A stretch of 64,000 bases of DNA from Pseudomonas sp. R5-89-07 (lineage in GTDB: Bacteria > Pseudomonadota > Gammaproteobacteria > Pseudomonadales > Pseudomonadaceae): NCBI RefSeq assembly GCF_003851685.1, contig NZ_CP027727.1, positions 868,001 through 932,000 on the forward strand, given 5' to 3'. The notes beneath the pieces were generated by a model that saw only the letters and a list, made by a program, of their open reading frames with translations, searched no databases and was not told where the DNA came from. Position numbers and translations under genes: made by a program. Below are positions 30,395 to 64,000 of this stretch, one piece after another (positions within the stretch are counted from its first letter, which is position 1; each line of letters starts with the position of its first letter).

Positions 30395-30402
30395 ATTTCA
30401 AA

Positions 30403-30561: not shown

Positions 30562-30748
30562 TTTTTGAGACCAGTTAACGCTGGAATCAAATCTTAGAAT
30601 CAGAGGTTGAAGCTCTGATAGAGGCGGTTTTACGGTTTTGGAAAGTGTTACAGCACTTAGATATCGCCGTAGACATGCAGCCGTCTGAGGCGAACAGTAG
30701 TTTCGGTTCGTCATGATGTCAATGTGCGTCGGTTTTGCGATGCGCATT

Positions 30749-30831
30749 CCGGGGTATAGCGCAGTCCGGTAGCGCGCCTGCTTTGGGAGCAGGATGTCGG
30801 GAGTTCGAATCCCCCTACCCCGACCATATTT
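30749..30831 (+). repeat. 83-bp direct repeat, copy 2 (contains tRNA-Pro)
   Basis: Second copy of the repeat at 30403. It is the last core-type element before the integrase and is the best candidate for an attachment-site half (see findings). Confidence 0.9.
30750..30826 (+). tRNA. tRNA-Pro (TGG), copy 2
   Basis: Same 77 bases as the copy at 30404, with full cloverleaf and encoded CCA. A terminator follows 10 bases later, so it ends the tRNA transcript. Confidence 0.97.
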
Positions 30832-43224: not shown

Positions 43225-43954
43225 CGCCGATATTCGTTATTTTTAAGCGCGAGTTGTGCGGCTATTTCGTCTCTCCTTTGGCCTATATATTTATTGAGGT
43301 GTTTCTGGTTCTGTCCGGCGTTCTTACATTTTATGTCGGAGGTTTTTTTGAGCGCAATCAAGCTGACTTGGTCTCTTTTTTGGTATCCATCCGTGGTTGT
43401 ATTTATTTCTGGCTCCTGCGCTCACTATGCGCCTTTGGGCTGAAGAGCGACAGTCCGGAAACATCGAATTACTGCTCACGTTATCGGTAGCAACGCGAAA
43501 TGTGGTGTTGGGGAAGTTTTTTGCCGCGTGGGTGGTGGCGGGAGTTAGTTTGCTTTTAACATTTCCGTTAGTGATTTCTGTAAATTATTTAGGTAACCCC
43601 GATAATGGAATTATCTTTGCGGGGTACATAGGTAGTTGGTTGCTCGTGGGGGCTTACCTTTCGATCGGTTCTTGTATGTCTGCGCTTGCTAAGAGTCAGG
43701 TAATCGCGTTGATTCTAACACTTGTCGTATGTTTTTTATTTGTCGTCAGTGGATTTCCCCTTGTACTGGACGCACTTAATCCATGGGCCCCGCAATGGAC
43801 TATTGATTTATTAGCTTCGATTAGCATTCTGGCTCGTTTTGAGGCAATCAGCAGGGGGGTAATTGATGTGCGCGATGCGCTATATTTTTTCAGTGCAATT
43901 GCGGCTTGGTTGACCGCTACCACCGTGGTCATCAATCTGAAGAAAGCGGAATAA
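43221..43954 (+). pseudogene. ABC transporter permease (GldF-like), frameshifted
   Basis: An ABC-2-type permease of about 244 residues split between two frames. The first part runs MTPIFVIFKRELCGYFVSPL to about DLVSF; the second continues GIHPWLYLFLAPALTMRLWAEERQ and ends VVINLKKAE. The frame changes at the T6 run 43376-43381, where one more T would restore SFFGIHPWLY. The heptamer at the shift is T TTT TTG in the zero frame, a classical -1 slippery sequence, so either a deletion, a sequencing error or programmed frameshifting is possible. Its place between the ATPase and GldG-like genes fixes the identity. Confidence 0.8.
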
Positions 43955-43963
43955 AGGAAGGAT

Positions 43964-45802
43964 ATGAGGCGAATTATATATTCTGGCACGGGGCTTCTAT
44001 TGATAGCTCTGTTTTTTTTGGCGTTCAATATGCTGGGTGGGCAGTGGCTGACTAACATTCGCTTGGACTTGACGGAGGATAAACTCTATTCCATCGGTTC
44101 GGATACCCAAAAAATAATTATGGGCTTAGAGAAGCCTATAGAGTTATACTTTTTTTACTCCAATTCCAGCTCAAGGGAGTTGAGCGCTATACGAAGTTAT
44201 GCATTGCGTGTAGAAGAGCTGCTCAAAGTGTACGAGCGAGAGGCTAAAGGATCAATTCGTCTGCATGTCATAGATCCTGTACCGTATTCCGATGACGAGG
44301 ATCGCGCAAATGGTTTAGGTCTTGAGCCTATGCTGTGGGGAGAGGGCGCTGCGCCCGTCTATTTGGGGCTGGCCGGCATCGACTCGCAGAATACCACCCA
44401 CGTTATTCCGTTTTTTTTTCCAGATCAAGAGAATAGACTTGAATATGAAATCAGCCGCCTTGTCCAGGTTCTAAATCAGCCTAAGCGTCCCGTAGTTGGG
44501 CTGGTTACAAGTTTGCCGTTAAATGGCGCTTACGATGTGCGTACGAAACGCATGGCCGAACGCTGGATGCTGGCCGAAGAAATAGGTCAAGCATACGATT
44601 TGCGAGAGGTAGCGGCGGATGTCAAGGAAATACCCAAAGATGTGAGTGTCTTGATGCTGGTTCATCCAAAGCAATTGTCAAAGGCAACGCTCTACGCCAT
44701 TGATCAGTTTGTTCTGAGGGGGGGCAAGTTGCTGGCTTTTATCGACCCATTGAGCGAGCTGGATCCCGGAGCCGAACACTTTGGTATTTTGAGTAAAGAC
44801 AAATCTTCTGATCTGGCACCACTGCTTGAAGCATGGGGGGTTCGGATGCAGACCGGAAAGATATTGGCTGACGGCGCCTACACCATGCTTGGTGGCACCG
44901 CAGAGGAAGTAGTAGCAACGCCACTCCCATTCACACTCAAGTTTTCAAGGAATGCATTCAATCAGAACGATCCGAGTACGGCCGGGCTGGAAGTTATAAG
45001 TATGAGTACCGCCGGCATAATAGAGTCAATACCAGGTGCTTCGACGCACTTTACTCCGCTCATACACAGCTCTGATTATGCGTTACCGATGGAGGTGAGC
45101 TATTTCGATAAATCAGATGATCATGATCGGCTGATGAAGATGCTAAAGCTCTTTACGCAACGATATATCGTGGCTGCCAGAATCCAAGGGCCGGTGGCAT
45201 CTGCTTTTGCTGATGGTATTGAAGATCATGAGGGGGGGGTTAAGCAGGCGAAGCAAATAAATGTCATTGTAGTAGCCGATACGGATCTACTGAGTGACTC
45301 GATGTGGCTGCACCAGCCGGACATCAGCGTAGGGCTGAAACCATGGTCGGACAACGCTGCGTTCGTGATGGGGGCACTGGATAGTTTAAGCGGATCGGAC
45401 ACGCTCAATGGCTTACGTGCTCGCGGGCGGCACGACCGCAGCTTTGTGCGTGTGGAGCAAATGCAGCGCAAGGCGCAAATGAGCGTTTTGGATAAGCAGT
45501 CTGCACTTCAGCAGCAGCTTGATGAAACCGAGCGCAAGATGCAGGATATACACACCTCAGCGGCCGAAAGCTCGGATGAATCTGAGGCGCGGCAACAGGC
45601 CATGATTCGAGAGTTTATGAGGAATAAAATCCATATCCGTAAACAGTTACGCGAGTTGCAATATGAGCTCAATAGCGATATTGGCGCTTTAGGACGACAA
45701 CTGAAAGTGATCAATATTGCTTTTATTCCATTCTTGCTAACGCTCTGCATGTTAATGATTTGCGGGATACGGCGTATCCGGATGCGGAGGCGGCCGTCTT
45801 AA
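43964..45802 (+). CDS. GldG-like ABC transport auxiliary protein
   Basis: A 612-residue membrane protein: N-terminal helix (about 7-25), then a GldG-type extracytoplasmic domain (LDLTEDKLYSIGSDTQKII, IELYFFYSNSS, VLMLVHPKQLSKATLYAIDQ, LRGGKLLAFIDPLSE), a coiled coil (about 510-590) and a C-terminal helix followed by RIRMRRRPS. AGGAAGG lies before the ATG, 9 bases after the permease. An 8-G tract (45232-45239) lies within it. No DUF4340-type partner, common in this kind of operon, follows. Confidence 0.85.
   Translation: MRRIIYSGTGLLLIALFFLAFNMLGGQWLTNIRLDLTEDKLYSIGSDTQKIIMGLEKPIELYFFYSNSSSRELSAIRSYALRVEELLKVYEREAKGSIRLHVIDPVPYSDDEDRANGLGLEPMLWGEGAAPVYLGLAGIDSQNTTHVIPFFFPDQENRLEYEISRLVQVLNQPKRPVVGLVTSLPLNGAYDVRTKRMAERWMLAEEIGQAYDLREVAADVKEIPKDVSVLMLVHPKQLSKATLYAIDQFVLRGGKLLAFIDPLSELDPGAEHFGILSKDKSSDLAPLLEAWGVRMQTGKILADGAYTMLGGTAEEVVATPLPFTLKFSRNAFNQNDPSTAGLEVISMSTAGIIESIPGASTHFTPLIHSSDYALPMEVSYFDKSDDHDRLMKMLKLFTQRYIVAARIQGPVASAFADGIEDHEGGVKQAKQINVIVVADTDLLSDSMWLHQPDISVGLKPWSDNAAFVMGALDSLSGSDTLNGLRARGRHDRSFVRVEQMQRKAQMSVLDKQSALQQQLDETERKMQDIHTSAAESSDESEARQQAMIREFMRNKIHIRKQLRELQYELNSDIGALGRQLKVINIAFIPFLLTLCMLMICGIRRIRMRRRPS
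45232..45239 (+). repeat. G8 tract inside the GldG-like gene
   Basis: Eight consecutive G coding for Gly-Gly-Val near residue 424 (DHEGGVKQ). Confidence 0.8.
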
Positions 45803-50247: not shown

Positions 50248-50357
50248 CGGCTGGGTAAGAACTTGGCACTATTTTCCAAGGCTAAAGGGCGATAATATTT
50301 TCGTGCTCTCCAGGGGCGTGTGTTGAGAACTACTCTACTGTAAAAGGAAGGTTAAGC

Positions 50358-50942
50358 ATGTCTAATAGTTTGAAAACTTTACTGGCAATAGCTGTTTCGG
50401 GTTTTATCGCTAACTCCGCAATGGCCGCTGATGGCGTTATTAATTTTACCGGTGAAATTGTTGCGGTAACGTGTGATGCTACTGGTGGTTCAACGGGTGG
50501 CAATGCAAGCGCTCAAAATATTGATGTAGATTTGGGTAAAGTTGCCATGGACTCCCTTCAAAATTCTGAAGGAGGCATCGTATCGGGTACTGCAATCAAT
50601 GTGAAATTGGATTGCGGTGGTACTGCTGAAGGCTTGAACTTCGTAAAAATGAAATTCGACCCGCTCTCGGGCTCGGGTGTAGATCTTGTTAATGGGAGCT
50701 TGCTGAAGACCGTCGGTACTGCAACAGGTGTGGGGATCGGTGTTTACAATTCTGAAAACGAGTTGCTGAACCTTTCCGCGAACGAATCCATTACTGCTCC
50801 TTTGGTAGGGGAAGAAGTAGGCGAGGACGAGACAAACTATACTGCTGATATCGTTCTTCGAGCATCTTATGTGGCCTCTGGCGGTCCGGTCGCACCCGGT
50901 ACCGCAAACGGGACTCTGCCATTTACTTTGACTTACGAGTAA
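50358..50942 (+). CDS. Fimbrial major subunit (chaperone-usher pilin)
   Basis: Structural pilin of 194 residues: signal peptide MSNSLKTLLAIAVSGFIANSAMA-AD, then GVINFTGEIVAVTCDATGG, two cysteines (C39, C82) for the pilin disulfide, and the C-terminal strand LPFTLTYE with the penultimate Tyr needed for chaperone binding. AAGGAAGG precedes the ATG. A stable hairpin follows, then the chaperone and usher genes: a CupA/Fim-type operon. It is relatively acidic and Gly-rich. Confidence 0.92.
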   Translation: MSNSLKTLLAIAVSGFIANSAMAADGVINFTGEIVAVTCDATGGSTGGNASAQNIDVDLGKVAMDSLQNSEGGIVSGTAINVKLDCGGTAEGLNFVKMKFDPLSGSGVDLVNGSLLKTVGTATGVGIGVYNSENELLNLSANESITAPLVGEEVGEDETNYTADIVLRASYVASGGPVAPGTANGTLPFTLTYE

Positions 50943-50956
50943 GTCTAGATAGTACT

Positions 50957-50984
50957 GGGAGAGAGTGGTTACTCGCTCTCTCCC
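50957..50984 (+). promoter_or_regulatory. Intra-operon hairpin after the pilin gene
   Basis: GGGAGAGAG (50957-50965), 10-base loop, CTCTCTCCC (50976-50984): a perfect 9-base-pair stem 15 bases after the pilin stop with no T tract. Such stems protect upstream mRNA from decay and give more pilin than chaperone/usher; partial termination is the other possibility. Confidence 0.75.
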
Positions 50985-50996
50985 TGTGAGTTTAAT

Positions 50997-51719
50997 ATGA
51001 AAATTATATCTTTTAGACGATGTTTTCTGGTGACTACCTTACTGCTGTTTTCAGGGTGGTGCAGTGCGGGGATCTCATTGGGCGGCACGCGGTTAGTATT
51101 TGAGGCCCCTAATAAAGAGGCTTCAATCATGGTCAAGAATGGGGGCGGACAGGATGTCATGATCCAGTCGTGGTTGGAGGCCGGGACGCCGCAGGAAAAA
51201 GGAGATATTCCCTTTGTAATTACGCCGTCGCTTAGTCGTCTGGGGGGGGGGAAGCAGCAAGTGCTCCGTATTCTTTATTATGGAGAAGGGTTGCCTACAG
51301 ACCGGGAATCCGTGTTTTGGTTGAATGTCCAAGAAATTCCACAAAAAGCCAAAGTGGATAACACCTTGCAAATCGCGGTGCGCCAGAGAATCAAAATGTT
51401 CTACCGTCCGTCTGGGTTGAAACAGGGGGCTGAAGATGTACAGAAAAATCTGAAATGGCGCGTACTAGGCCAAGGGGCTCAGGCGCGATTGGAAGTAGTA
51501 AATGATTCGGCCTATTACGTGTCATTTGGAAAGATTACGCTACGTAGTGGTTCTAACACTTATGAAGTAGTTCCTGAGATGCTGGCGCCATACAAGACGT
51601 CGGTGTTTAAAATTAATGCGTTAGACGGAAAATTTTCCGCCGCAGCCACTCAGGTGGAATTTAAAACTATCAACGATTACGGTGGGGTTATTAGTCAGAA
51701 GTCCGGGCTTTCTAAGTAA
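50997..51719 (+). CDS. Periplasmic pilus chaperone (PapD family)
   Basis: Folds and carries pilin subunits to the usher. The 240-residue protein has a signal peptide (FLVTTLLLFSGWCSA-GI), the PapD features GGTRLVFEAPNKEASIMVKN, IQSWLEAG, PFVITPSLSRLGGGKQQVLRIL and FWLNVQEIPQKA, and the basic residue RIKMFYRP that anchors subunit ends. A G10 tract (51242-51251) lies in the SRLGGGKQ codons. Second gene of the operon. Confidence 0.93.
   Translation: MKIISFRRCFLVTTLLLFSGWCSAGISLGGTRLVFEAPNKEASIMVKNGGGQDVMIQSWLEAGTPQEKGDIPFVITPSLSRLGGGKQQVLRILYYGEGLPTDRESVFWLNVQEIPQKAKVDNTLQIAVRQRIKMFYRPSGLKQGAEDVQKNLKWRVLGQGAQARLEVVNDSAYYVSFGKITLRSGSNTYEVVPEMLAPYKTSVFKINALDGKFSAAATQVEFKTINDYGGVISQKSGLSK
51242..51251 (+). 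repeat. G10 tract inside the chaperone gene
   Basis: Ten consecutive G, the longest homopolymer noticed in the window, coding Gly-Gly-Gly. Slipped-strand mispairing here would switch the chaperone off. Confidence 0.85.
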
Positions 51720-51794
51720 CTTCATAGATCGTAGAGCTAATTATTTTTTTGACCTGGCGCTCTGTAAAATGCCTGGGATGGCGAGGTATTGACG

Positions 51795-54272
51795 GTGAAA
51801 TATAATTCTCGGATCCCGTGTTTGGTTGGGATTGGGTTTCTATGCCCTGTTGTCGCTAGCGCTGTAGAGTTTAACGAGCACTTTTTAACCAAGGGCGGTG
51901 CGCCAGTTGAGCTTCATTTTTTCGAACAGGGCAATGGGGTTTTGCCTGGCTCCTATGGCGTAGATATCTATCTTAACCAAGTGCTGATTAAACGTCAGGA
52001 CGTTGATTTTCGCGGTGCCGCTGACGGAGAAGTCAGGCCAGATATTTCGTTGGGAACACTTCGCGCGTTAGGGGTCGATATTGTACGTCTGGAAAAGGAA
52101 GGGCTTATACCTGCGAGCAGCGATGACGCACGGCTTATCAATATTGCTGCTTTGCTGGAAGGGGCTTCGGTCGATTTTGATGTGACGAACCTCGCTTTAC
52201 ACATCAGTGTTCCTCACGCCTATATTTTGCGTCGGTCCCGAGGTTATGTTGACCCTACATTGTGGGATCAGGGCATAACGGCTTTGTATACAAATTATCA
52301 AATCAACGTCAATCGTAATGAAAATTCGGGAGCGCGCTCGGACTATCGGTACATCGGGTTACGGAATGGGTTTAACCTGAAGGGCTGGCGTTTTCGCAAT
52401 GAGTCTTCATTGTCCGGAGGGAGCGGCAGGCCTAATACATTTAGTAGTAATCGTAGCTACCTTGAGCGTGATCTTGCATCGCTAAAAGGCAAGCTCGCCA
52501 TGGGCGACCTTTATTCTCAAGGTGATATCTTCGACAGCGTCCGTTTTCGCGGTGCTCAAGTGACGTCGGACTTAGGCATGCTAACTGATGGTGAGCGAGG
52601 TTATGCTCCGGTCGTGCGTGGTATTGCTGAGTCCAATGCTACCGTAGAAGTGAGGCAGAACGGCTACGTTATCTACTCGACTACTGTTTCGCCAGGTGCT
52701 TTTGAAATATCCGATATTTACCCAGGCGGCTCTAATGGTGATCTTAAAGTAAAAATTATCGAGGCTGATGGGCGTGAGCGCGAATTTTCTCAAGCATATT
52801 CTTATTTGCCGGTTATGGCGCGACGAGGCAGTATGCGTTATAGCTTGGCCGCCGGTAAGTACAACGTTCCAGGGCGGCCCTCACCAAAATTTACCCAAAG
52901 TACCTTGGTGTACGGCTTAACCAATAACTTCACGGGTTATGGTGGCCTGCTGGTTGCTCAGAAATATAAAGCGTTGAACGTGGGTGTCGGGATCAACTCT
53001 AGTTTGGGGGGCGTTTCCGTCGATATTACCAGCAGCGCTTCTGAGGATGACCACGGTAAGAAAAATAAAGGGCAGAGCGCACGGTTTCTATACTCAAAAA
53101 CGGTCAACAGCACCAACACTACGTTCACTATGGTCGGCTATCGCTATTCTACAGACGGCTACCGTACGCTGAATCAGCATGTCGATGAGATGGACCTCAC
53201 GATGGGGCGACGTAACGGGCGACAAAAAAGCCATTTTGATATGAATGTCAGTCAGGCTATTTCTAAGCATGGTTCGTTGTTTTTGAGCTTGGGTGAAACA
53301 AGCTATTGGAACGTGGTTGGGCGTACTCGACGTTGGCAGGCTGGCTATAGCGGTAGCTTATCGAGAGGAAGTTATAGCTTGGCAGTGTCTAAGACTAAAA
53401 ATTCTGATCATGTAAATAGTTCTGATACGCAACTTACTGCATCTTTTAGTTTTCCTCTTGGTGAGCGCTCAAGCACGCATTATGTGAATTCTAGCGCTGT
53501 ATCATCGCAGCACGGGGATTCGGTTTTACAAACTGGCGTGTCTGGCTATTTAGACGATAAAAACACTGTTAATTACTCCGCACAATCGGGATATAGTAAA
53601 CAGAGTGGAAGTTCTGGAGGCATTGGGGTGGGTTGGGATGCGCCAGTTGCTACGCTGGGTGCCCGCTATAATCAGAGTTCGGACAGTAAGCATGTTGATC
53701 TCAGCGCTTCCGGTTCTATAGTGGCTCATGAGGGTGGTATTACCTTCGGTCAGCCTGTCGGCGAAACATTTGCTTTGGTTGAAGTTCCTAACGTTGCCGG
53801 TGTGGGAGTTGATAGCTATAACTCGGTCCGTACTGACAATAGTGGTTATGCCGTGGTCCCTTATGTACAGCCTTATCGTTACAATTGGCTGAATTTGGAC
53901 ACAAATACAATTGACAGCAATATGGAAGTTGCCGAGAGCAGTAAAATTGTTGTGCCCACGCGAGGAGCAGTCGTCAAAAGTCGTTTCGCTGCTGAGTCGG
54001 GTCGCCGACTTCAGTTTAATTTAACCCTTGATACAGGTGGGAAAATTCCTTTTGGCGCGCAGGCATATGATAAAAAAGGTAAGGCTCTCGGTGCTGTTGA
54101 TAGCCTATCCCGTTTGCTTGTTTTTGGTGTCGATGATTCCGGAACTCTGAGTGTTCGTTGGGGGCGAGATAGCTGTAGATTCGATTATGCGCTGCCAGTT
54201 GCTAATAAAAATCTTGCTTACGAAAAATTTAATTATACTTGTGTATATTCTGGATCTTCGGAGGAAGTGTGA
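51795..54272 (+). CDS. Outer-membrane fimbrial usher (PapC/FimD family)
   Basis: Outer-membrane pore of about 825 residues that assembles and exports pilins. It has an N-terminal signal peptide, the usher N-domain (FNEHFLTKGGAPVELHFFEQ), the 24-strand barrel with the plug, the motif YPGGSNGDLKVKIIEADGRER, and the C-terminal domains ending in the cysteine pair RDSCRFDYALP / YTCVYSGS. The GTG at 51795 has GAGG at 8 bases and is preferred to TTG at 51789. It is the last full gene of the operon; a short vestigial frame overlaps its stop. Confidence 0.94.
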   Translation: MKYNSRIPCLVGIGFLCPVVASAVEFNEHFLTKGGAPVELHFFEQGNGVLPGSYGVDIYLNQVLIKRQDVDFRGAADGEVRPDISLGTLRALGVDIVRLEKEGLIPASSDDARLINIAALLEGASVDFDVTNLALHISVPHAYILRRSRGYVDPTLWDQGITALYTNYQINVNRNENSGARSDYRYIGLRNGFNLKGWRFRNESSLSGGSGRPNTFSSNRSYLERDLASLKGKLAMGDLYSQGDIFDSVRFRGAQVTSDLGMLTDGERGYAPVVRGIAESNATVEVRQNGYVIYSTTVSPGAFEISDIYPGGSNGDLKVKIIEADGREREFSQAYSYLPVMARRGSMRYSLAAGKYNVPGRPSPKFTQSTLVYGLTNNFTGYGGLLVAQKYKALNVGVGINSSLGGVSVDITSSASEDDHGKKNKGQSARFLYSKTVNSTNTTFTMVGYRYSTDGYRTLNQHVDEMDLTMGRRNGRQKSHFDMNVSQAISKHGSLFLSLGETSYWNVVGRTRRWQAGYSGSLSRGSYSLAVSKTKNSDHVNSSDTQLTASFSFPLGERSSTHYVNSSAVSSQHGDSVLQTGVSGYLDDKNTVNYSAQSGYSKQSGSSGGIGVGWDAPVATLGARYNQSSDSKHVDLSASGSIVAHEGGITFGQPVGETFALVEVPNVAGVGVDSYNSVRTDNSGYAVVPYVQPYRYNWLNLDTNTIDSNMEVAESSKIVVPTRGAVVKSRFAAESGRRLQFNLTLDTGGKIPFGAQAYDKKGKALGAVDSLSRLLVFGVDDSGTLSVRWGRDSCRFDYALPVANKNLAYEKFNYTCVYSGSSEEV

Positions 54273-54340
54273 GGAGTCTAAAGTTTATTGCTCTTATCTT
54301 TATGTTTGTTCTCTGGTTGAAATTATCTACCTCGTTATAA
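54269..54340 (+). pseudogene. 23-residue signal-peptide-like frame overlapping the usher stop
   Basis: GTG at 54269 overlaps the usher TGA and opens a frame that reads MRSLKFIALIFMFVLWLKLSTSL and stops at 54340. A basic start plus a hydrophobic stretch looks like the beginning of an exported fimbrial protein. Adhesin genes often stand here in chaperone-usher operons, so this may be the remnant of a lost or relocated adhesin. It may instead be chance. Confidence 0.4.
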
Positions 54341-54779
54341 TTTTACACCTCGGAGACAGGCTTATTCGAAAATCACATGTAGATTTATGCGTTTAAAGAC
54401 TATCTTTTTAAGGCGAATATTTGTTGGTTTTTAAGATTTCGGAAAGGGCAGAAAGGCAGAGACGTTTCTGAGTACGCTACCTTTGTTAAGGTGACTGCGC
54501 ACTACAACCGTTGATTTTAAGGTCACTAGCCTAGGTAAGGGGGGGCGCTCTAGCGCGTCGGCCTTGGCACATTGGTGCTGATTTATAACGGGGGTCTTTA
54601 GGATTACGAAAGGGCTGAGTCAGGCTGACGAGCTAAAAAAATATAAGCGTTGAGTATTTACCCTAACTAATTCTGATACGCTCGCTGACGCAGGGGACGC
54701 GGATGCCATCCGCCGCGAGGTAAGGTGAATTTACCCCGTTGATTATCCTCACGCTCGTGCGTTTTTCGGAGAGGTCTCT
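54341..54779. other. Intergenic region before the response regulator
   Basis: About 440 bases without a supported gene. A G7 tract lies at 54539-54545. A ribosome site CGGAGAGG precedes the next ATG. Confidence 0.45.
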
Positions 54780-55409
54780 ATGGGACGTATTGTTATTGTG
54801 GATGATCACCCGCTTATCCGCTTGGCGGTTAAGGTGGCTTTGGAAGAAGAGGGGCATACCGTTCTTGCAGAAGTCGATAATGGCTCAGACGCTTTGGAGA
54901 TAGCCCGCAGGCTCCTTCCCGACTTGATCATTCTTGATCTCAGCATCCCTAGCAAGGACGGTTTTGCGGTGATTGCTCACCTGAAGTCGATTGGCCTTGC
55001 CGTCAAAATACTCGTTCTTACCTCAGGAGAGCCGCGCAATTTTGCGATGCGTTGTTTGCAGGCCGGAGCTGCTGGGTTCGTCAGCAAGGGGGACAACCTT
55101 GACAAGCTGGCGGGCGCGGTCAAGGCGGTATTATCGGGGTATTCCTATTTTCCAGAAGATACCATTTTCATGTTGAGGGAAAACGCTCAAGGTGCTCATG
55201 ATGAAGGTGCCCTTATCAGAGACCTTTCTGATCGTGAAATAACTGTCTTGAGGCTGCTCGCCCAAGGATTTGGTAATCAGGAAATCGCCGAGACACTGAT
55301 CATCAGTCACAAGACTGTGAGCACCTATAAGGTCAGATTACAACGAAAACTTAACGCTCCAAATCTTGTGGCGCTAGTTGAGTTAGCCAAGCGCAATGGC
55401 ATTTCCTGA
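54780..55409 (+). CDS. NarL/RcsB-type response regulator
   Basis: A 209-residue regulator: receiver domain with acidic pair D8/D9, phospho-acceptor D53 (LIILDLS) and K103 (FVSKGD), and a LuxR-type helix-turn-helix from about 145 (LSDREITVLRLLAQGFGNQEIAETL, SHKTVSTYKVRLQRKL). Full length. The adjacent hybrid kinase is the likely partner. The arrangement recalls the RcsCB/PvrSR regulators linked to the cupD fimbriae of PAPI-1 in P. aeruginosa. Confidence 0.92.
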   Translation: MGRIVIVDDHPLIRLAVKVALEEEGHTVLAEVDNGSDALEIARRLLPDLIILDLSIPSKDGFAVIAHLKSIGLAVKILVLTSGEPRNFAMRCLQAGAAGFVSKGDNLDKLAGAVKAVLSGYSYFPEDTIFMLRENAQGAHDEGALIRDLSDREITVLRLLAQGFGNQEIAETLIISHKTVSTYKVRLQRKLNAPNLVALVELAKRNGIS

Positions 55410-55819
55410 AAATAGCCGTTTGGTGGCGTTAAGCCTAATGCTCGGTTATAAAATATTGAAGCGAAAATTCAATTAATCTTGCCCGAAGGATACCGTTTGG
55501 CTGCGTCTGCAACGTATCCTAGGCATTAAGCTATTCAGTTTCAAAAAATTGGCGATTCTATTGGTTAGCTAGAGATATGATTCAGAATTCATAAGCTTAT
55601 GTCTGTAGGCGCGCCTGAGTCGGAACAGCTTGATATGACGGCCCGCATAACTTTTTGCTCAAGCCCTTTCTATTGGGTGAACTGAGACGGCGTCCCTAAT
55701 TTTTAGTATTATCTACATATTCGTGTGGTGCTGTTCCTTTCCTGGTCTCCGATTTTGTCCTATACTGAAGCATTTCCTGACATTAATGAAAAATTGCACA
55801 AATTTTAACTGGACGAACT
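55410..55819. other. Intergenic region before the hybrid kinase
   Basis: 410 bases without a gene. An inverted repeat, AGGATACCGTT (55487-55497) and AACGTATCCT (55511-55520), could be an operator or weak hairpin. The kinase therefore has its own promoter region rather than being tightly coupled to the regulator. Confidence 0.45.
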
Positions 55820-58800
55820 ATGAAAATAATGCGTTCTAAGCTTCGGAATTTGTCAAGGTCTATGTTGCGCTTCAACTCGCTGTTGTTATATTCATTTCTT
55901 CTTACGCTGTTCTTTTTTGGTACCAGCTATTGGGCTATTTATACGGTCGTAGAGGAGCAACGCGTCAAGGTTAATTACCATTATTTTAGAATGGTTGGTG
56001 CAATACATGAGCATGAGCTTTTTTTACTACAAGTTGCTCGGCTGACGTCTGCTGCTTTTAAATTTGATAAGCCATTAGTGCTGTCAAGCGTCAACCATTA
56101 TATCTCAAATTATCATGATTTTTATGACGTCGAGGGCGGTGAGCGCGAACTTGCATTTTCCATGATGTTGCCTAAGGCTATTCTTGATGGACAGGCGATA
56201 AGGCATAAATTAGAGTTGGCCATGAAAGTTTCGAAGTTTCGCAAGGGCTTCTGGGATGATTCCCCCTATTCGGCGCCGCAGTTATTCGTTCTAGATAGTC
56301 GCAGTGTTGCTGGCTTCTCCATTCCTCCCATTGACCGCCGAGCAGGGCGAGGCGAAACTGCTCGTAACGGCCTTCGACAGGTCATTGAGAAAGTCGCTCG
56401 TAATGTGCGTAGTTTGCCTTCGGACTCCGGCTCCCGTCGAGTACATTGGCGGCCAGCTTCTGAATTTCTGGGGGCGGGCGCGCGGGAAACTCTGGCTTAT
56501 GTTTCCGGTGTTATTCCCGATAAGGCTTGGGGCATCAACAGCACATCGTCAAAATTCAATATTGCCGCTCTATTTGAACTGGATAGCCTTTATAAATATG
56601 GTCAGCCTGAAAATGCGATATTCGATTCGTTAGATCTTATTTCACCTGAGGGAGTGGTAGTCATAGGGGCAGATATGTCTAAGTCTGACTATGGAAACGG
56701 GATTTTTTTAACCCAGACTGGTTTGTTGATCAAGCGCAGCTCTGGGTTTGAAAAAAGCTGGCAAGCTTTTTACCACATTGGCTATCAACGGCTATTTCAT
56801 GACGCGAAATGGTCGTTGCTCAATGTTCTGCTTTTACTTATCTCCTGTCTTGGTCTTGGGTATTTGTTATTGCGATGGCAGCGTCGGAATATCGTAGATC
56901 CAGCAGATCGATATTATGGCTCTTTAATTAGTAGGAATGAGTTTAGCCACGGTGTTATCCAGGCGACGCCGGTTGCATTGTGCGTCATAAAAGAGCGTGG
57001 GCGACAAGTGGTTTTGCAAAATTCATTAGCATCAGAGTGGGTCGGCGACCTGAAGTTTGTGGCGCATTTGATGCTCGACTGGCACATGTTTGAAGGCGGT
57101 GAGCCGGTGTCCGGTGAAGCATGCGTTATGATAAACGCGCTTTGCTTGCATGCCCGATTCGCCCCGACGACTTACCACGGTAGCCCCGCTTCTTTGTGTG
57201 CGTTTATTGATATTACAGCTTATAAAAACTCAGAGTCGGAGCTTGTTAGGGCGCGTAATTTAGCTAATCTTGCTAGCGCGGAAAAAAGTCGTTTTTTAGC
57301 ATGTATGAGCCATGAGATCAGAACGCCGCTGTATGGCGTAGTTGGAACGCTGGAATTGTTGGGGTTGACCCCGATTAGCCAGCAACAGGCAGGATACCTA
57401 CAGATAATTAAAGGGTCTTCTAACGTTCTATTGCAATTGATCAGTGATATCCTTGATTTATCAAAGATCGAAGCTGGAGAAGTAGCCTTGAATCTGCAGT
57501 CTTTTTCACCTTTGGAGTTGGCGGAGGAGGCGATACGCAGTTATTCGGCTACTGCTGAGGGGAAGGGTTTGTTATTGTACAGCTGTGTCGATACCGACTT
57601 ACCGGGCAAAGTCCTGGGAGATGGTATGCGAGTGCGTCAGATTGTTAATAATCTGCTTAGCAACGCCATCAAATTTACCTCTACAGGCAAAATCGTGCTT
57701 CATTTAAGAGTGCTTGGTCGTGAGGATGGGCGGGTGCGCCTTCAATGGGAGGTCGTCGATACCGGAGTTGGTATCTCCAAAGAGCACCAAATTAATTTAT
57801 TCGAGCCTTTCTTTCAGGCTGATAATCAACAGTCTGGCACAAATGGAGCCGGCCTGGGCTTGACCATTTGTTGGCAACTCAGCCAACTGATGGGGGGAGA
57901 ACTAAAGGTCTCGAGTGTGCCCCTACTGGGAAGTAATTTTAGTTTTGAAGTCCAGCTTCTTGAGCTTGAGAGCAGTGTACTGCTTCCTCGCGCTATTCCG
58001 GTGGGGACTGTGAAAGTTCATGTTCGCTCTCCGGAGGCGGATCTTACTGGCGAGATTTGTCACTGGTTGGAAATGTCGATGGGAGGCGTCATCGAGTGGA
58101 GCGAGCAAGCATCGGTAACGTCCAGCGATAAAGATTTATTATTGGAGCTGTATGGCGATTCAATTCCCCCCATTGAATGGTCCGGCCCTCGTGTCCTGGC
58201 TGCCGCGCATGCGAGCATCCACCCTTTACGCGACGTACACGGATGGCATGTCAATATCCATAGCCGTTTGGAGATTACACGTGCCGTCATGTTATCAATG
58301 GGCTGGCTAGTTGAATCGGCTGTTCTGCAAGACGATAAGCTTGCCGAAGTCCCGCTCGGTTTAAGGGTCTTGTTGGCTGAGGATCATCCGGTTAATCAAG
58401 CTTTGCTCTCCGAACAATTGGAGCGGTTAGGATGTTCGGTAATTACGGTCAGCAATGGAGAAAGTGCGTTTCACATGCTAGAGGTGGGTGAGTTCGACGT
58501 GTTGCTGACGGACGTTAATATGCCCGTGATGGACGGCTATGAACTTACCAAATTGGTAAGATCATCCGATAGTTCAATACCGATTGTGGCAGTAACGGCC
58601 AATGTATTACAAGGCGAAGGTGATCGTTGTATCAGTGCTGGTATGAATGCATGGCTGACCAAGCCTGTTAGCTTGGCTGCATTACGCAGCTGTTTAAAAG
58701 CTGTGACGGAAGGCAAGGTTGTCAGGCTGGGTGAAGCGACTTCTCGGAGCGGAATCCCTCTAGCCGAAGACGACGCGTCGGGTTTACCAATGCAGATGCG

Positions 58801-59071
58801 TAAGCTTTTCGTCGACTCCATGAAAAAAGACTTAGATGCTGTTTATGCTGCTAAGGCCAGTGATGACGTGAGTGAACTGATTTTCTTGCTTCATCGTATT
58901 CGTGGGGCGTTAGCGGTCGTCAAAATACCCTACTTGATAAAAGCGAGTTTGGAAATTGAGCTCATTCTTAAAAAGGGTAAAAGTCTTCCATTGATGTCTA
59001 ATAAGCTAGAGCGGTTTTTAGAGATGGTAAATACTGTCGTGGAAAGGATCGAAAGCGAGAGTAAGAAATAA
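55820..59071 (+). CDS. RcsC-like hybrid histidine kinase
   Basis: An inner-membrane sensor of 1083 residues: helix 1 (about 21-43), periplasmic domain (about 45-328) without a recognised ligand fold, helix 2 (about 332-351), a PAS-like region (about 370-470), HisKA with H498 (ACMSHEIRTPLYG), HATPase with RQIVNNLLSNAIKFT (about 606-620) and the G-boxes DTGVGIS and GAGLGLT, a receiver domain with D898 (LLTDVNMPVMDG), and an HPt domain with H1025 (LLHRIRGAL). This is an unorthodox three-step phosphorelay. The last 90 or so bases of the gene are found again at 61690. Confidence 0.93.
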   Translation: MKIMRSKLRNLSRSMLRFNSLLLYSFLLTLFFFGTSYWAIYTVVEEQRVKVNYHYFRMVGAIHEHELFLLQVARLTSAAFKFDKPLVLSSVNHYISNYHDFYDVEGGERELAFSMMLPKAILDGQAIRHKLELAMKVSKFRKGFWDDSPYSAPQLFVLDSRSVAGFSIPPIDRRAGRGETARNGLRQVIEKVARNVRSLPSDSGSRRVHWRPASEFLGAGARETLAYVSGVIPDKAWGINSTSSKFNIAALFELDSLYKYGQPENAIFDSLDLISPEGVVVIGADMSKSDYGNGIFLTQTGLLIKRSSGFEKSWQAFYHIGYQRLFHDAKWSLLNVLLLLISCLGLGYLLLRWQRRNIVDPADRYYGSLISRNEFSHGVIQATPVALCVIKERGRQVVLQNSLASEWVGDLKFVAHLMLDWHMFEGGEPVSGEACVMINALCLHARFAPTTYHGSPASLCAFIDITAYKNSESELVRARNLANLASAEKSRFLACMSHEIRTPLYGVVGTLELLGLTPISQQQAGYLQIIKGSSNVLLQLISDILDLSKIEAGEVALNLQSFSPLELAEEAIRSYSATAEGKGLLLYSCVDTDLPGKVLGDGMRVRQIVNNLLSNAIKFTSTGKIVLHLRVLGREDGRVRLQWEVVDTGVGISKEHQINLFEPFFQADNQQSGTNGAGLGLTICWQLSQLMGGELKVSSVPLLGSNFSFEVQLLELESSVLLPRAIPVGTVKVHVRSPEADLTGEICHWLEMSMGGVIEWSEQASVTSSDKDLLLELYGDSIPPIEWSGPRVLAAAHASIHPLRDVHGWHVNIHSRLEITRAVMLSMGWLVESAVLQDDKLAEVPLGLRVLLAEDHPVNQALLSEQLERLGCSVITVSNGESAFHMLEVGEFDVLLTDVNMPVMDGYELTKLVRSSDSSIPIVAVTANVLQGEGDRCISAGMNAWLTKPVSLAALRSCLKAVTEGKVVRLGEATSRSGIPLAEDDASGLPMQMRKLFVDSMKKDLDAVYAAKASDDVSELIFLLHRIRGALAVVKIPYLIKASLEIELILKKGKSLPLMSNKLERFLEMVNTVVERIESESKK

Positions 59072-60364
59072 GACGCTCTTTGTAGCCCGCCGGCTTATGT
59101 CGCAGCGAAGCGGAACACATGGCGGGGCTAATATGCCCCGTCTAAGCAGCCCACAGTTTAAATGGACTGGCCATGCGCAGCTGTGAAGCGGCGTTTATCC
59201 AGCACGCGTTATCGGTAAGCTCTGGCCAACTCACCTGCCAAGCTCCAGCATTAAGGGTGGTGGTGTTCGAGTATTTTTAAGCTGACGCGCTAGCCTTTGT
59301 CACAAAAATTCTCATTCGCGAACGAAGCTTATACCCCAAACCGTTCAAAGCTCAGGTCGTCCAGGAATGCTTACTACCTGGAGCGACGATTTCCATCATA
59401 GTTATCCACCTCGATATCAACGCCAACATTATCTCAAAGTGGCGTAAGCGCTCGATGATCCCCACATTTAACGTATCAGCCTGATCCGCGATGCTTTGCT
59501 CCCGATTTCTTCCGGAGCCAGCACCTCATGATGCGCGGATGCCCGCTTGATCTGTACGAGACCTGCTCTAGGTACGATTACTAATAAATCGCCCGATAAT
59601 GAATAACTCGAGATTCCTCAGATCACGCACTTGCTATCGAAGATTTTGAAATTGGGAAAAAGAGGGGGTTGAAGACGGATTCAGGTTTATCAATCCGGCT
59701 GATTGACGAGTAACTTTCGAGGGAAGCACCGTTTCAATGCGCCCAGTGAGTGCCTTATAGTTGCGTGCTTGAACCAGCAACTGATAGGCATCGGTGGCTT
59801 GTCCATATGATCCATATGCCGAGGCTACGCCGGGTGTATGTCGAAAATTCATCAGGAGAGCAGCATGTTGGTCAAGCGTTAGTAAAAGCTCTTATGAGAC
59901 ATGCGGCTCTTCGCTTTCGGGCCGTGCACATCAACTGATATATCCCAAGGCGACGCGTTTTATCTGCACTGTGGTTTCATACAAACATATATTCCTCATG
60001 CTACTCCTGTCATGCAGACAGGCGAGAGCTGCTGCACGTAGCCAAAGGTGTATTTGCCAGCCGCTTACCGTTGTTGATTGCTTCGGCTCGCCTATATCAA
60101 TAGATATATCTCGCGATCCGCAGCGCAGGCCTGTGAAGTTCCGTCAAGTTTCCCATCAGAGTCAACAAGCCCAATGCATGCTTAGGAAGCGGTTGATTTT
60201 TAATTTCAAACTGCGCTACTCCGTTTGGGTTGGTAATGCTCTCACAGCTTTCTGCACAATGATTCCTTAGATGTGGGTGATCATCTGCAAGGCGCTGCAC
60301 GCAAACCATCCCCACCTACCCATAAATCAGGTACTGGATGGCATTTTTAGCCAAAAGCTGCACG
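59072..60364. other. Region between kinase and adhesin 1, cassette spacer
   Basis: About 1.3 kb. Bases 58973-59225 (kinase tail and first part of this spacer) recur at 61690-61960. The middle (59230-59960) has short frames on both strands without family signals. Nothing coding is supported. Confidence 0.55.
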
Positions 60365-60469
60365 AAATACCTTGATGTAGGAATTGTCCGAGGGGGTGGG
60401 GCGTTTAGTCCTGTTGGTTTCTTTTTTTCTAACTGTAAATTGTAAGTCCTATTCTTGAAGGTGGTGGTC
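60365..60469 (+). promoter_or_regulatory. Conserved leader of adhesin 1
   Basis: Aligned with 62170-62265 and 63388-63491: CTTGATGTAGGAATTGTCCG, then TTTAGTCCTGTTGG, a T-rich run and CTGTAAAT, ending in GAAGGTGGTGGTC before the start. The TAGGAATTGTCCGA core matches 10 of 14 positions of the RcsB box TAAGAATATTCCTA. Direct control by the linked regulator is inferred. Confidence 0.6.
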
Positions 60470-61429
60470 TTGGGTGTGTGTCTTGTTAATTTTGTAATAG
60501 GCTGCTTGCTTTCCTGTGTTTTTTTTGTGGAATCAGCACTTGCTCGGTGTTCTGATGATAACAAGACATTTGACGCGGCATTTCCAAGCGCGATTGTGAT
60601 TTCACCCAATATTCCCATAGGAGGAGTGTTGGCGCGGTCGTTATGGATGGGTATTGGCTCGTATTCCATAGTCTGTAGCGTCGGAGATAAAGTCTTATAT
60701 GAAGAACGATCGGGTATGGAGATGTCCCAGATTCCGGGGGTATATAAGACCAACGTTGAAGGGGTTGGTTTGAAGTTTGTATTGAAACCTCATACCAATA
60801 GAGCAGTGCCTTTTGCACTACATTACGAACGGCCACTTGGTGTGGACATTGGGGTAGAAATTTCTTTAATTCGCACAGGTGCGTTTGTCGGGAAAAACAG
60901 GCTAGAGGCTAATTTTGACATTTCGGTCGGTCACGGTACGGCCTCAAGAGCTGCGACATATAGGGGGAGGATATCAACACAATTGGAGGAAAATAATTAT
61001 ACAATGTGTTTAGTCGGAGATATAAATTTAGACGTGCAACTGGGAAGATTTTTTGTTGGACAAGTAAGATCCGGTAGCGCTGCACCAAAGTCATTTTCTT
61101 TTGATGTTTCTTGTGCTGGTGTACCTGCCGGAAAGCCGCTTCCGGTAAAAGTATATTTTGTCGGCGACTCTCCATCTGCCGGTACTTTATATCTTTCAGG
61201 TAGGGGAAGTTCTGGGGTGGCTAAAGGCGTTGTAATTGGATTGGAAAATGATAAAGGAGTTGCTCTACCTTTTGATAGGGCTAATGCGGTACCAATCGAA
61301 TGGCAGAGCTCTCAACCGTCAGGAGAGGTCTACCGTTTCGATGGTTTGGCGAAATATATGCCAGGAGGGGGAAGCATACAGCCCGGTATGGCGAATGCGG
61401 TAATGATAATTGTCTTGGAATACAGCTAG
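60470..61429 (+). CDS. Two-domain fimbrial adhesin, copy 1
   Basis: A protein of 319 residues: signal peptide (CLVNFVIGCLLSCVFFVESALA-RC), a variable N-terminal domain of about 160 residues and a C-terminal pilin domain starting LDVQLGRFFVGQV and ending VMIIVLEYS, the penultimate Tyr of chaperone-usher subunits. The TTG at 60470 is inferred from alignment with the two later copies (AAGG 8 bases upstream); a TTG at 60455 is also open. Probable tip adhesin of the linked fimbria. No family name was recognised for the N-terminal domain. Confidence 0.8.
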   Translation: MGVCLVNFVIGCLLSCVFFVESALARCSDDNKTFDAAFPSAIVISPNIPIGGVLARSLWMGIGSYSIVCSVGDKVLYEERSGMEMSQIPGVYKTNVEGVGLKFVLKPHTNRAVPFALHYERPLGVDIGVEISLIRTGAFVGKNRLEANFDISVGHGTASRAATYRGRISTQLEENNYTMCLVGDINLDVQLGRFFVGQVRSGSAAPKSFSFDVSCAGVPAGKPLPVKVYFVGDSPSAGTLYLSGRGSSGVAKGVVIGLENDKGVALPFDRANAVPIEWQSSQPSGEVYRFDGLAKYMPGGGSIQPGMANAVMIIVLEYS

Positions 61430-61689
61430 TTCCTTTGTTTGCGTAGGAGCGAGGCTCTGGCTTTTCTGTAATATTATGCTCTAAGGTGGCGCTCCACAAT
61501 TGAGGATTTGATGTTGATTTTGTTTAGGGCGGAATTGGAGAACGTCATTGCCAATTATGAAGTGAAGGCTTTATTTTAACTAAAGTTTAACTTGAACATC
61601 AGTAAGGTAGCTGGCTTGAAGCACTGGCCCGCAAAGGGGGCATTCTCAGTATGATTTTATATCCGGTAGACTTCCTGTCGTTGTTATCT
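61430..61689. other. Spacer after adhesin 1
   Basis: The first part (CCTTTGTTTGCGTAGGAGCG) resembles the sequence right after adhesin 2 (63232 onward). The rest has only traces of the kinase gene; no frame is supported. Confidence 0.5.
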
Positions 61690-61960
61690 GGAAGGGCGTA
61701 AGTCTTTCATCGATATTTAATGATCTGGCGTTTTTTAGAACCTGTAAATAACGTTGTAGAAAGAGTCGAAAGCGTGTGTAAAAAATAAAAGGCTATTTGC
61801 AGCTCACCTTCTTGTGTCGTAGCGAAGTGTATCACATGCTAAGAGGGGCTTATTGTGCGCCGTCTGCGCGCCTAACAGTTAAAGCGGACTTGACCATGTG
61901 CATGTTGTTCAGCGGTTTCATCCAGTATGCATTTTCCTTCGCTCTGACTCGCTAATATCA
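61690..61960. repeat. Duplicated kinase-gene tail and spacer (cassette 2)
   Basis: Bases from GGAAGGGCGTAAGTCTTTC through GAAAGAGTCGAAAGCG align with the last 95 bases of the kinase gene (58973-59071), and similarity goes on through TTCTTGTGTCGTAGCGAAG to the spacer near 59225. The kinase frame here is broken, so it is a non-coding remnant that marks the cassette boundary. Confidence 0.75.
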
Positions 61961-62169
61961 GTGCGCTATGTCCCGCCACATGTCTGTGATTGTGGTCTGT
62001 GAAGTGTTGTCGAGTTTCTCGGCCAGACTCAATAAGGTCAACATATGGTTAGGTATCATCTTGTTACGACGCTCATGGCAGAGCTACTCTGCTCGGGTTG
62101 GTAATACTCAAAGGTACCATCGGCCTAAAGGTTAGATACGGGCGGCGTCTGTTGCTCAAAAAACGCACG

Positions 62170-62265
62170 AAATGCTTTGGTGTAGGAATTGTTCCGGGAG
62201 AGGAGGACTTTGTCCTGTTGGCTTCTTTTTTCTACCTGTAAGTTTGATTCTGGGGGGAGGTGGTC
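62170..62265 (+). promoter_or_regulatory. Conserved leader of adhesin 2
   Basis: GGTGTAGGAATTGTTCCGGG, GACTTTGTCCTGTTGGCTTC, a T-rich run, CTGTAAGTTTG and GGGGGGAGGTGGTC before the start; the motif has one extra base compared with copy 1. Confidence 0.6.
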
Positions 62266-63228
62266 TTGGTCGTACGTCTTATAAATTTTGTAATGGGTTG
62301 CTTGCTTTCCTATATATTTCTTGCAGAGTCGGCACTCGCTGTCTGTGTTGACAATGACTATAAATATGAAGTGACATTTCCAAGCACGCTTAGGATCTCA
62401 TCCGTTCCCATTGGAGGGGTGTTGGCGCAGACGGCATGGCAGAGCCCTCTCAGTAATGCCATACGTTGTGACATAGGAGATATACTCTTATATGAAGAAA
62501 AAACGGGCATGGAGATGTCCGGAATTCCTGGCGTGTATAAGACAAACGTTGAAGGCATTGGTATGAGATTCCTACTGGGAAATAGAGGAATACCATTGCC
62601 TTTTTCCAGGGTTTTCTCTCGTTCTGGGTCTGTGGATCGTACGATAGTGATTGAGCTTGTACGCATAGGTGCTGGAGTCGGGAAAGAAAGGATAGAGTCC
62701 GATCTCCACATTGAGATCGGCCAGGAGGGTGGAGGGGCGAGTGGTAAAGTTGCGACATATAAGGGAAAGTTATCATTTGACGTAATTGGCAATAATTATA
62801 TGATGTGTTCTGCCGGAAATCTGAGTTTAGATGTGCAGTTGGGAAGGTTTTTTGTTGGGCAAGTAAAGTCCGGTAGTGCTGCTCCAAAATCATTTTCTTT
62901 TGATGTCTCTTGTACTGGTGTACCGGCCGGAAAGCCGCTTCCGGTAAAAGTATATTTTGTCGGCGACTCTCCATCTGCCGGTACTTTAAATCTTTCAGGT
63001 AGGGGAGGTTCTGGGGTGGCTAAAGGCGTAGTAATAGGGTTGGAAAATGATAAAGGGGTTGCTTTACCTTTTGATAGGGCTAATGCGGTACCAATCGAAT
63101 GGCAGAATTCTCAACCGTTAGGAGAGGTCTACCGCTTCAATGGACTGGCGAAGTATATTCCGAGAGGGGGAGACATACAGCCCGGTGTGGCGAATGCGGT
63201 AATGACAATGGTCTTGGAATACAACTAG
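62266..63228 (+). CDS. Two-domain fimbrial adhesin, copy 2
   Basis: A protein of 320 residues with the same plan as copy 1. Signal peptide VVRLINFVMGCLLSYIFLAE and following, ending ...SALA-VC; N-terminal domain clearly different (DNDYKYEVTFPSTLRISSVP); C-terminal domain from LDVQLGRFFVGQVKSGSAAP on nearly identical. By hand the last 133 residues differ at 14 positions. TTG at 62266 is inferred by alignment with GGAGG upstream. The conserved/variable pattern suggests gene conversion or cassette exchange. Confidence 0.8.
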   Translation: MVVRLINFVMGCLLSYIFLAESALAVCVDNDYKYEVTFPSTLRISSVPIGGVLAQTAWQSPLSNAIRCDIGDILLYEEKTGMEMSGIPGVYKTNVEGIGMRFLLGNRGIPLPFSRVFSRSGSVDRTIVIELVRIGAGVGKERIESDLHIEIGQEGGGASGKVATYKGKLSFDVIGNNYMMCSAGNLSLDVQLGRFFVGQVKSGSAAPKSFSFDVSCTGVPAGKPLPVKVYFVGDSPSAGTLNLSGRGGSGVAKGVVIGLENDKGVALPFDRANAVPIEWQNSQPLGEVYRFNGLAKYIPRGGDIQPGVANAVMTMVLEYN

Positions 63229-63275
63229 TACCTTGTTTGCGTTGGTATGTGGAGTGAAGTTCTGGCTTTTGCCGG

Positions 63276-63491
63276 TTATGATAGCGTGAGTAAAGAATAA
63301 AAGGCTGTTTACAGCTCACCTTCTTGTGCCGGAGCGGAGTGGATCGCAGCTAAGAGGACCCTACTGTACGCCGGCTGCGCGCCTCACATGCTTTGATGTA
63401 AGAATTGTCTGAGTGGGTGCAAGGTTTTGTCCTATTGGCTTCGTTTTTTTAATCTGTAAGCTGATGGGGTTGATCCTGAAAGGTAGTGGTC
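63276..63491 (+). repeat. Cassette 3 boundary repeat and leader
   Basis: GATAGCGTGAGTAAAGAATAAAAGGCTG aligns with the kinase-tail remnant of cassette 2 (61769 onward), followed by ACCTTCTTGTGCCGGAGCGG; then the leader CTTTGATGTAAGAATTGTCTG, GTCCTATTGGCTTCG and CTGTAAGC lead to the start. Cassette 3 has a shorter spacer than 1 and 2. Confidence 0.7.
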
Positions 63492-64000
63492 ATGAGTGTG
63501 CGTATTTTTAGTTTTGTAGTGGCTTGCTTGTTTTTATATATTTTTCCTGTGGAGTCGGCGCATGCTAAGTGTTCGGATAAGCTCAAAGCATTTGATGTGA
63601 CATTTCCAAGCTCGGTTAGAATTTCATCTGTTCCTATTGGGGGAGTGCTGGCGCAGATAAAATGGTACACTCCTGGCGATTATTTCTTTGGCTGTGTGGA
63701 CGGAGATGTCATATCGTATGAAGAAAAAACGGGTATGGAAATGTCCGGGATTTCTAAAGTATATAAGACCAACGTTGAAGGGGTTGGTATAAGGTTTGTG
63801 TTAGGTATGTACACAAAACATACATTGCCTTATTCTTTTGTTTTCCATCCGCCGATGGTGGCCGAAACTACTATTGTAATTGAGTTAGTACGCACAGGTG
63901 CGGGGGTTGGAAAAAATAGGCTAGAGTTCGATTTGGACATTGAGGCCGTAGAAGTTGGAGGTTCAGGGCTGAAACTTGCGTCATATAAAGGGAAGGTGTC
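63492..64000 (+). CDS. Two-domain fimbrial adhesin, copy 3 (cut by window end)
   Basis: An open frame to the window end, about 170 residues visible. ATG start with AAAGG 9 bases upstream, signal peptide MSVRIFSFVVACLFLYIFPV and following, ending SAHA-KC, then CSDKLKAFDVTFPSSVRISSVP, PIGGVLAQ, YEEKTGMEMSGI and VYKTNVEGVG, all shared with copies 1 and 2, with different residues between. The C-terminal domain lies beyond the window. Confidence 0.78.
   Translation, partial: MSVRIFSFVVACLFLYIFPVESAHAKCSDKLKAFDVTFPSSVRISSVPIGGVLAQIKWYTPGDYFFGCVDGDVISYEEKTGMEMSGISKVYKTNVEGVGIRFVLGMYTKHTLPYSFVFHPPMVAETTIVIELVRTGAGVGKNRLEFDLDIEAVEVGGSGLKLASYKGKV

Follow-up and report, generated by a model that had tools for sequence, protein, structure and literature searches.

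The window analysed here is a stretch of 64,000 nucleotides from Pseudomonas sp. R5-89-07 (positions 868,001-932,000 of a genome that consists of a single contig of 5,997,145 bases), and its last part harbors a chaperone-usher fimbrial cluster followed by an array of three tandem adhesin genes, which is the subject of this report. From 50,358 onwards, the forward strand successively encodes a major pilin, a PapD-type chaperone, an usher, a LuxR-type response regulator, a hybrid histidine kinase and the three adhesins (Table 1). The array is found where a preliminary description of the sequence had placed it, behind the fimbrial operon and its regulators, and the third gene, interrupted by the end of the window, continues for 454 bases beyond it and is complete in the genome.

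Three intact adhesin genes with a conserved pilin domain

Each of the three copies combines an N-terminal MrkD-type receptor-binding domain with a C-terminal pilin domain (PF22003 and PF00419, both above cut-off in 3/3 copies), in an intact reading frame, and PF22003, the profile of the MrkD receptor-binding domain, matches exactly three places genome-wide, all of them in the array. The top match among PDB profiles is MrkD1P (3u4k, E 3.5e-12), and a structure model of copy 2 displays a FimG/FimA-like fold for the pilin domain and a separate domain resembling those of Abp1D/MrkD1P, preceded by a leader that is hydrophobic by eye and forms a helix at 2-17 in the model. The motifs PIGGVLA and EMSxIxxVYKTNVEG, already noticed in the preliminary description, are both present in all three copies, and are to be considered family hallmarks, since the MrkD1P profile alignment has similar residues at the same positions. 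By analogy with this family, the three proteins would be located at the fibre tip and bind receptors.

Table 1. Positions of the genes and gene remnants of the fimbrial cluster (window coordinates)
Feature	Position	Strand	Evidence
Major pilin, 194 amino acids (aa)	50358..50942	+	PF00419, E 2.7e-14
Periplasmic chaperone, PapD type, 240 aa	50997..51719	+	PF00345, PF02753
Outer-membrane usher, 827 aa	51789..54272	+	PF00577, E 5.3e-169
LuxR-type response regulator, RcsB/RocA1-like, 209 aa	54780..55409	+	PF00072 and PF00196
Hybrid histidine kinase, HisKA-HATPase-receiver-Hpt (RcsC-type layout), 1083 aa	55820..59071	+	Domain profiles
Remnant of IS66-type transposase	59215..59443		Plasmid sequences at 75-78% identity, several of them annotated as transposase and one as IS66 family
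Adhesin 1, 319 aa (TTG start), with a leader that is hydrophobic by eye, an MrkD-like receptor-binding domain and a pilin domain	60470..61429	+	PF22003 and PF00419 above cut-off; intact frame
Remnant of the kinase gene 3' end, start of duplicated unit 2	61692..61788	+	Local alignment score 94, none of 200 shuffles exceeding 44
Adhesin 2, 320 aa (TTG start)	62266..63228	+	PF22003, PF00419; predicted structure, mean pLDDT (predicted local distance difference test) 82.9
Repeat of the kinase-tail/upstream block that opens unit 3	63280..63388	+	84% identity to 61768-61877 (110 columns)
Adhesin 3, 320 aa (ATG start)	63492..64000, on to window-equivalent 64454 (L004:1487-2455)	+	Profiles; start and frame

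Over their last 133 residues, copies 1 and 2 show 14 differences, exactly the number that had been announced, against 23 between copies 1 and 3 and 17 between copies 2 and 3. Over the last 143 residues, protein identity reaches 86% (1/2), 80% (1/3) and 87% (2/3), whereas it falls to 48% (1/2), 49% (1/3) and 58% (2/3) in the N domain (46-57% in another alignment), so the strong N-terminal divergence of copies 1 and 2 is borne out as well. The ratio of nonsynonymous to synonymous substitution rates (dN/dS) follows the same division, with 0.27 (1/2), 0.18 (1/3) and 0.11 (2/3) in the C domain and 0.77, 0.67 and 0.38, respectively, in the N domain, where dS values are probably inflated by misaligned diverged stretches; between genomes too, dS is often lower in the C than in the N domain. 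Together with the intact frames, this pattern speaks for three genes that all work, the assembly domain being under constraint and the binding domain less so, and all three copies look functional from their sequences.

The contrast between a constant C-terminus and a variable N-terminus was implied to be unusual in the preliminary description. It is in fact general: among 55 adhesins, and once pairs with C identity <0.40 and N identity <0.5 were dropped, the N domain was less conserved than the C domain in all 16 same-locus pairs and in 176 of the 181 between-locus pairs kept, which are not mutually independent. At a C identity of 0.8-0.9, the median N identity was 0.58 for same-locus pairs (n = 3) vs 0.68 for between-locus pairs (n = 7), and one tandem pair among those dropped, L064, has no contrast at all (N 35/141, C 36/133). 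As it holds between loci too, the contrast is a property of the family and not a mark of the array, and it was rejected as a special sign of diversification.

Occurrence of tandem adhesins

In a sample of the genus, 84 of 398 genomes had a match to the MrkDrd profile, and 6 of these 84 (including the genome described here) had at least two matches starting within 3 kb, three such matches being found in this genome only. A class-wide sample yielded matches in 4 of 369 genomes, again including this one, and a close pair in one other, G562. At least two adhesin-length open reading frames (ORFs) matching the profile occur in succession in 7 of 19 named loci (L063, L064, L071, L072, L076, L077 and L078). 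In the Pseudomonas pairs L044, L045 and L046, the adhesins seem, from self-alignment, to have additional pilin-domain repeats next to them. Among the 8000 candidates sharing most words, which were those scored in the search for relatives, the closest sequences outside the clusters of the array itself are 35% identical to copy 1 and 37% to copy 2, with 38% in L063. Each of these clusters stands for between one and four sequences, from one or two contigs, and may therefore include a few near-identical records. Among plasmid records, nothing close to 50300-64000 was found at the DNA level, and adhesin 2 had no relative there.

Origin of the array by tandem duplication

The repeated unit exceeds the gene, and consists of a kinase tail, an intergenic stretch and an adhesin. 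In a self-alignment, the last 99 bases of the kinase gene and the stretch that follows (58973-59213) are repeated at 61692-61936 (71% over 248 columns), where the remnant can still be read as the end of the kinase protein. Part of this block recurs ahead of copy 3 (Table 1), and a family of 69-bp repeats ties both occurrences to the end of the kinase gene. Compared directly with the kinase gene, 63246-63330 gave no significant match (27 of 200 shuffles scored as high), and the start of unit 3 was recognised via the block of unit 2; no remnant of the kinase gene was found in 61448-61692. Chance is excluded by the identity of the units, 73-75% across more than 1 kb of DNA, and the presence of kinase 3'-end remnants within the repeated unit identifies the array as a product of tandem duplication. 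Between the kinase gene and copy 1, unit 1 is longer by roughly 860-900 bp, part of which is the relic of an IS66-type transposase that units 2 and 3 lack.

The same style of duplication, involving an adhesin and the tail of the gene upstream of it, is met in Burkholderia ubonensis (L063, 478-4284), and is apparently new. In this locus, a 3' part of the usher gene (478-729) is repeated before adhesin 2 at 2025-2276 (76%), and a stretch within it (597-722) before adhesin 3 at 3542-3667 (91%), this third adhesin being devoid of a binding domain.

Gene conversion and domain exchange

Recombination at the conserved ends, as put forward in the preliminary description, is backed by relatives of the array, while its own copies give weak and mixed indications of gene conversion. 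Along columns 668-839 of their codon alignment, copies 1 and 2 reach 92-98% identity per 60-nt window, with a permutation p of 0.0016 when all sites are used. In a synonymous test on 17 tandem pairs, p was <0.05 in three of them, namely copies 1/2, copies 2/3 of L063 and the L076 pair; after correction for 17 tests, L076 is clear, L063 2/3 (0.0024) barely passes and copies 1/2 fail. The L076 pair, from Citrobacter freundii (L076:8494-10702), has 26/116 synonymous differences in the N domain vs 3/137 in the C domain (p 3.8e-7), which clearly points to C-terminal gene conversion. Conversion is not needed for the constant/variable contrast in the Dyella pair L071, as synonymous differences are equal in both domains there (13/111 for N vs 14/124 for C).

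Exchange is also seen between genomes. The Pseudomonas loci L046 and L061 are 88% identical in their ushers and 79% in the C domain, but only 29% in the N domain, with synonymous differences at 30/40 (N) vs 30/110 (C) shared residues (p 1.9e-7), and the reverse pattern is observed between copy 2 of L044 and L055 (N 0.92, C 0.57, usher 82%). Binding and pilin domains have different histories in these loci, and such comparisons among relatives give good support to binding domains having been exchanged in the course of evolution.

Upstream sequences and genomic setting

A TGATGTARGAATTGTC-like block is present at 60373-60388, 62178-62193 and 63394-63409, some 73-98 bases upstream of each adhesin start, and faintly resembles what we take to be the RcsB box; its conservation proves little, because the adhesin copies are duplicates. 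An RcsB-like box, TARGAATNNTC, precedes copies 1 and 3, these being its 2 matches over 20 kb (0.34 expected, 5 of 200 shuffles giving as many), and none precedes the pilin gene. The copies are duplicates, however, and the pattern is retained as a lead.

The cluster lies past a break in base composition, the G+C content, about 61% before a cluster of Asn-Pro-Lys-Pro transfer RNA (tRNA) genes at 30,319-30,826, dropping to 45-57% immediately beyond it; this cluster is followed by genes for an integrase, a TraI_2 relaxase, TraG_N and TraU. Six families of conjugative elements (TIGR03744, 03745, 03746, 03749, 03750 and 03752) are represented at 940-947 kb of the genome (the island was read up to 950 kb), and parts of the tRNA stretch are repeated at 997,079-997,308 with 95-99% identity. 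These repeats likely mark the far end of the island, so that the fimbrial cluster is probably the cargo of an element of about 98 kb, and its carriage by an integrative conjugative island is strongly indicated. Two adjacent ORFs inside the island (L004:7438-8406, reverse strand) match different parts of tyrosine recombinases. Behind adhesin 3, a 138-aa ORF (L004:2754-3170) has by eye the look of a degenerate receiver and no Pfam match, and the start of a short ORF (L004:5611-6021) recalls, also by eye, a fragment of a peptide-synthetase adenylation domain.

Upstream of the array, the ATP-binding cassette (ABC) transporter genes at 42301-45802, the fimbrial operon and the response regulator are syntenic with four genomes (G017, G099, G238 and G361), with identities of 69-71% for the regulator, which occupies the same place in L121-L124, and 42-56% for the ABC genes. 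The usher is 62-63% identical to those of these four genomes and of G206, and the closest relatives of the major pilin, those with a name being mostly from Pseudomonas, are 58-63% identical. Between usher and regulator, the 507-base gap of our locus contains no ORF of at least 90 aa, G361 (L124) has two ORFs with a 407-column common repeat (63%), one of them matching the adhesin profile (20.2 bits), and G099 (L122) has a 327-aa ORF without match. Our kinase is unlike that of the syntenic loci, its top match among the ORFs of the loci compared being only 35-36% identical, in G214. From these comparisons, the kinase and the adhesin array look like exchanged modules.

A probable fimbria with three alternative tip adhesins

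Taken together, these data make it likely that the locus encodes an island-borne chaperone-usher fimbria under an RcsB/RcsC-like switch, and that tandem duplication of its tip-adhesin gene has provided one usher with three intact alternatives. The single chaperone and usher would recognise the pilin domain common to all three adhesins, so that each fibre would most likely have one of them at its tip, and mixed binding specificities would be displayed by a cell or population. The pilin domain may have been kept constant mainly by purifying selection for assembly, possibly aided by gene conversion between copies 1 and 2, with the receptor-binding domain freer to diverge. The adjacent regulator presumably controls the whole, and the receptors may differ between copies; with a single assembly machine, the cell would probably gain more than one binding specificity from the three adhesins.

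Several observations weigh against this interpretation. The likely starts of copies 1 (60470) and 2 (62266), set by alignment with the ATG of copy 3, are TTG codons, so that one or two of the adhesins may be poorly made, and the binding domain of copy 1 matches profile positions 8-87 of 142 only. The adhesin genes follow the kinase gene and not directly the usher gene, so that their pairing with the usher of the fimbrial operon is presumed, and the usher profile matches five places in the genome, i.e., four further ushers. Promoter-like consensus sites and terminators in the region show no excess over shuffles. A dN/dS below 1 is as compatible with plain conservation as with slow specialisation. 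The tract shared by copies 1 and 2 has a p of 0.10 with third positions alone, and the pair has one of 0.044, uncorrected, in the synonymous test on codons for identical residues.

Could the array instead work by cassette or antigenic variation, with one copy expressed, the others acting as donors, and exchange at the conserved 3' ends altering the binding domain displayed? The common upstream block and common 3' ends provide homology on both sides, and the near-identical tract of copies 1 and 2, the strong C-terminal conversion of the Citrobacter pair and the binding-domain swaps among Pseudomonas genomes are all in line with such exchange. But silent donors were not encountered, since the array consists of three complete genes, each with a start, a leader and its own upstream region, and no recombinase family is represented among the five other ORFs of at least 90 aa from the kinase gene to the start of copy 3, which leaves the host RecA route. 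Nor is there an inverted pair of at least 40 nt, the five imperfect ones of 14-26 nt being taken for chance. Moreover, the converted tract sits in the constant half, and therefore homogenises the display instead of varying it, and the constant/variable contrast, being general, does not plead for cassettes. This mechanism is unlikely, and cassette switching was rejected for lack of a recombinase family, long inverted pairs and silent copies. Of the proposal made in the preliminary description, proteins of tip-adhesin type with a variable receptor-binding domain and a conserved assembly domain, arranged in tandem beside an RcsC-type kinase, are supported, but a cassette mechanism at this locus is not.

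That the copies are redundant duplicates, decaying after tandem amplification without different functions, would agree with the TTG starts, with the eroded look that the intergenic remnants and the IS66 relic give to the region, and with the third B. ubonensis copy, which lacks its binding domain; it is nevertheless unlikely, as protein divergence has reached 13-20% in the C domain and 42-52% in the N domain without an internal stop in any copy, and as C-domain dN/dS is well below 1. The possibility that the three genes are independent minor pilins and not adhesins, also raised in the preliminary description, could draw on their common PF00419 domain and on the extra pilin-domain repeats suggested near the adhesins of L044, L045 and L046. 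It is hardly credible given the MrkD-type domain above the curated cut-off in each copy, a length about 1.65x that of the major pilin, and the separate Abp1D/MrkD1P-like domain in the model of copy 2.

Beyond the fimbria with three alternative tip adhesins favoured here, a wider and more doubtful proposal is that such loci are mobile, recombination-fed generators of adhesion specificities, in which the constant pilin domain and the duplicated tails of upstream genes would serve as homology anchors, tandem copies would arise and be homogenised at their assembly end, and new binding domains would come from other loci or strains onto one usher, this style of unit having arisen separately in Pseudomonas and Burkholderia. 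If three full-length tip adhesins do share one usher, usher choice among competing adhesins could be asked directly, and the question of mixed fibre specificity within one cell would become addressable. Related loci show that a binding domain can be moved without its assembly domain, a result with a bearing on changes of specificity of chaperone-usher fibres in nature.

Comparison with known systems

The preliminary description knew of no system of this form linked to an RcsC-type kinase. One is the cupD-rcsBC-pvrRS cluster of P. aeruginosa PA14, on the PAPI-1 island, described as a chaperone-usher operon with one adhesin beside an RcsC-type hybrid kinase and a helix-turn-helix (HTH) response regulator (PMC2696094); the system also appears in PMC3842833 and PMC8565334, the title of the latter calling the island an ICE (integrative and conjugative element). 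By domain order and description, both systems have in common the RcsC-type kinase, with the same domains and 1084 aa in PA14 vs 1083 aa here, the HTH regulator and the island location. They differ in that cupD, as described there, comprises a single predicted adhesin of 448 aa along with a second chaperone and a PvrS/PvrR pair, with regulators in opposite orientation, whereas our locus has three adhesins, located behind the kinase gene, and regulators in the same orientation. It has one chaperone and one kinase, with neither a second chaperone nor a PvrS/PvrR pair encountered, and no EAL domain among the 10 proteins scanned from window 50.4 kb to window-equivalent 66.1 kb.

Tandem adhesins with apparent recombinants are described for the Salmonella ste fimbrial cluster, which has a pi-clade usher and two adhesin copies instead of three, the available part of that article mentioning no Rcs linkage (PMC3373541); it is the only relevant case of several adhesins per usher found in the open-access literature, as far as its accessible text goes. 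MrkD of Klebsiella and Abp1D/Abp2D of Acinetobacter have the same receptor-binding domain family and two-domain plan as our adhesins. In Acinetobacter, however, each of the two pili, Abp1 and Abp2, has its respective tip adhesin (PMC9942807), unlike the three adhesins gathered here at one locus.

Closer in architecture, B. ubonensis LMG 20358 (L063) has tandem MrkD-like adhesins, copies 2 and 3 each following the 3'-end remnant of an upstream gene, and kinase-regulator-kinase genes downstream of the adhesins; it differs by the origin of the remnant, from the usher gene and not from the kinase gene, and by its incomplete third copy. The usher lying near pqsA in a P. aeruginosa record (L090), a locus that we take to be cupC, is 59% identical to ours and has the same pilin-chaperone-usher order, with no adhesin gene annotated directly behind it in a plasmid gene table that is incomplete. 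Judging from the open-access literature, three intact adhesin copies at one Rcs-linked usher locus are apparently new, and the array represents an ordinary kind of protein in an unusual arrangement that has precedents.

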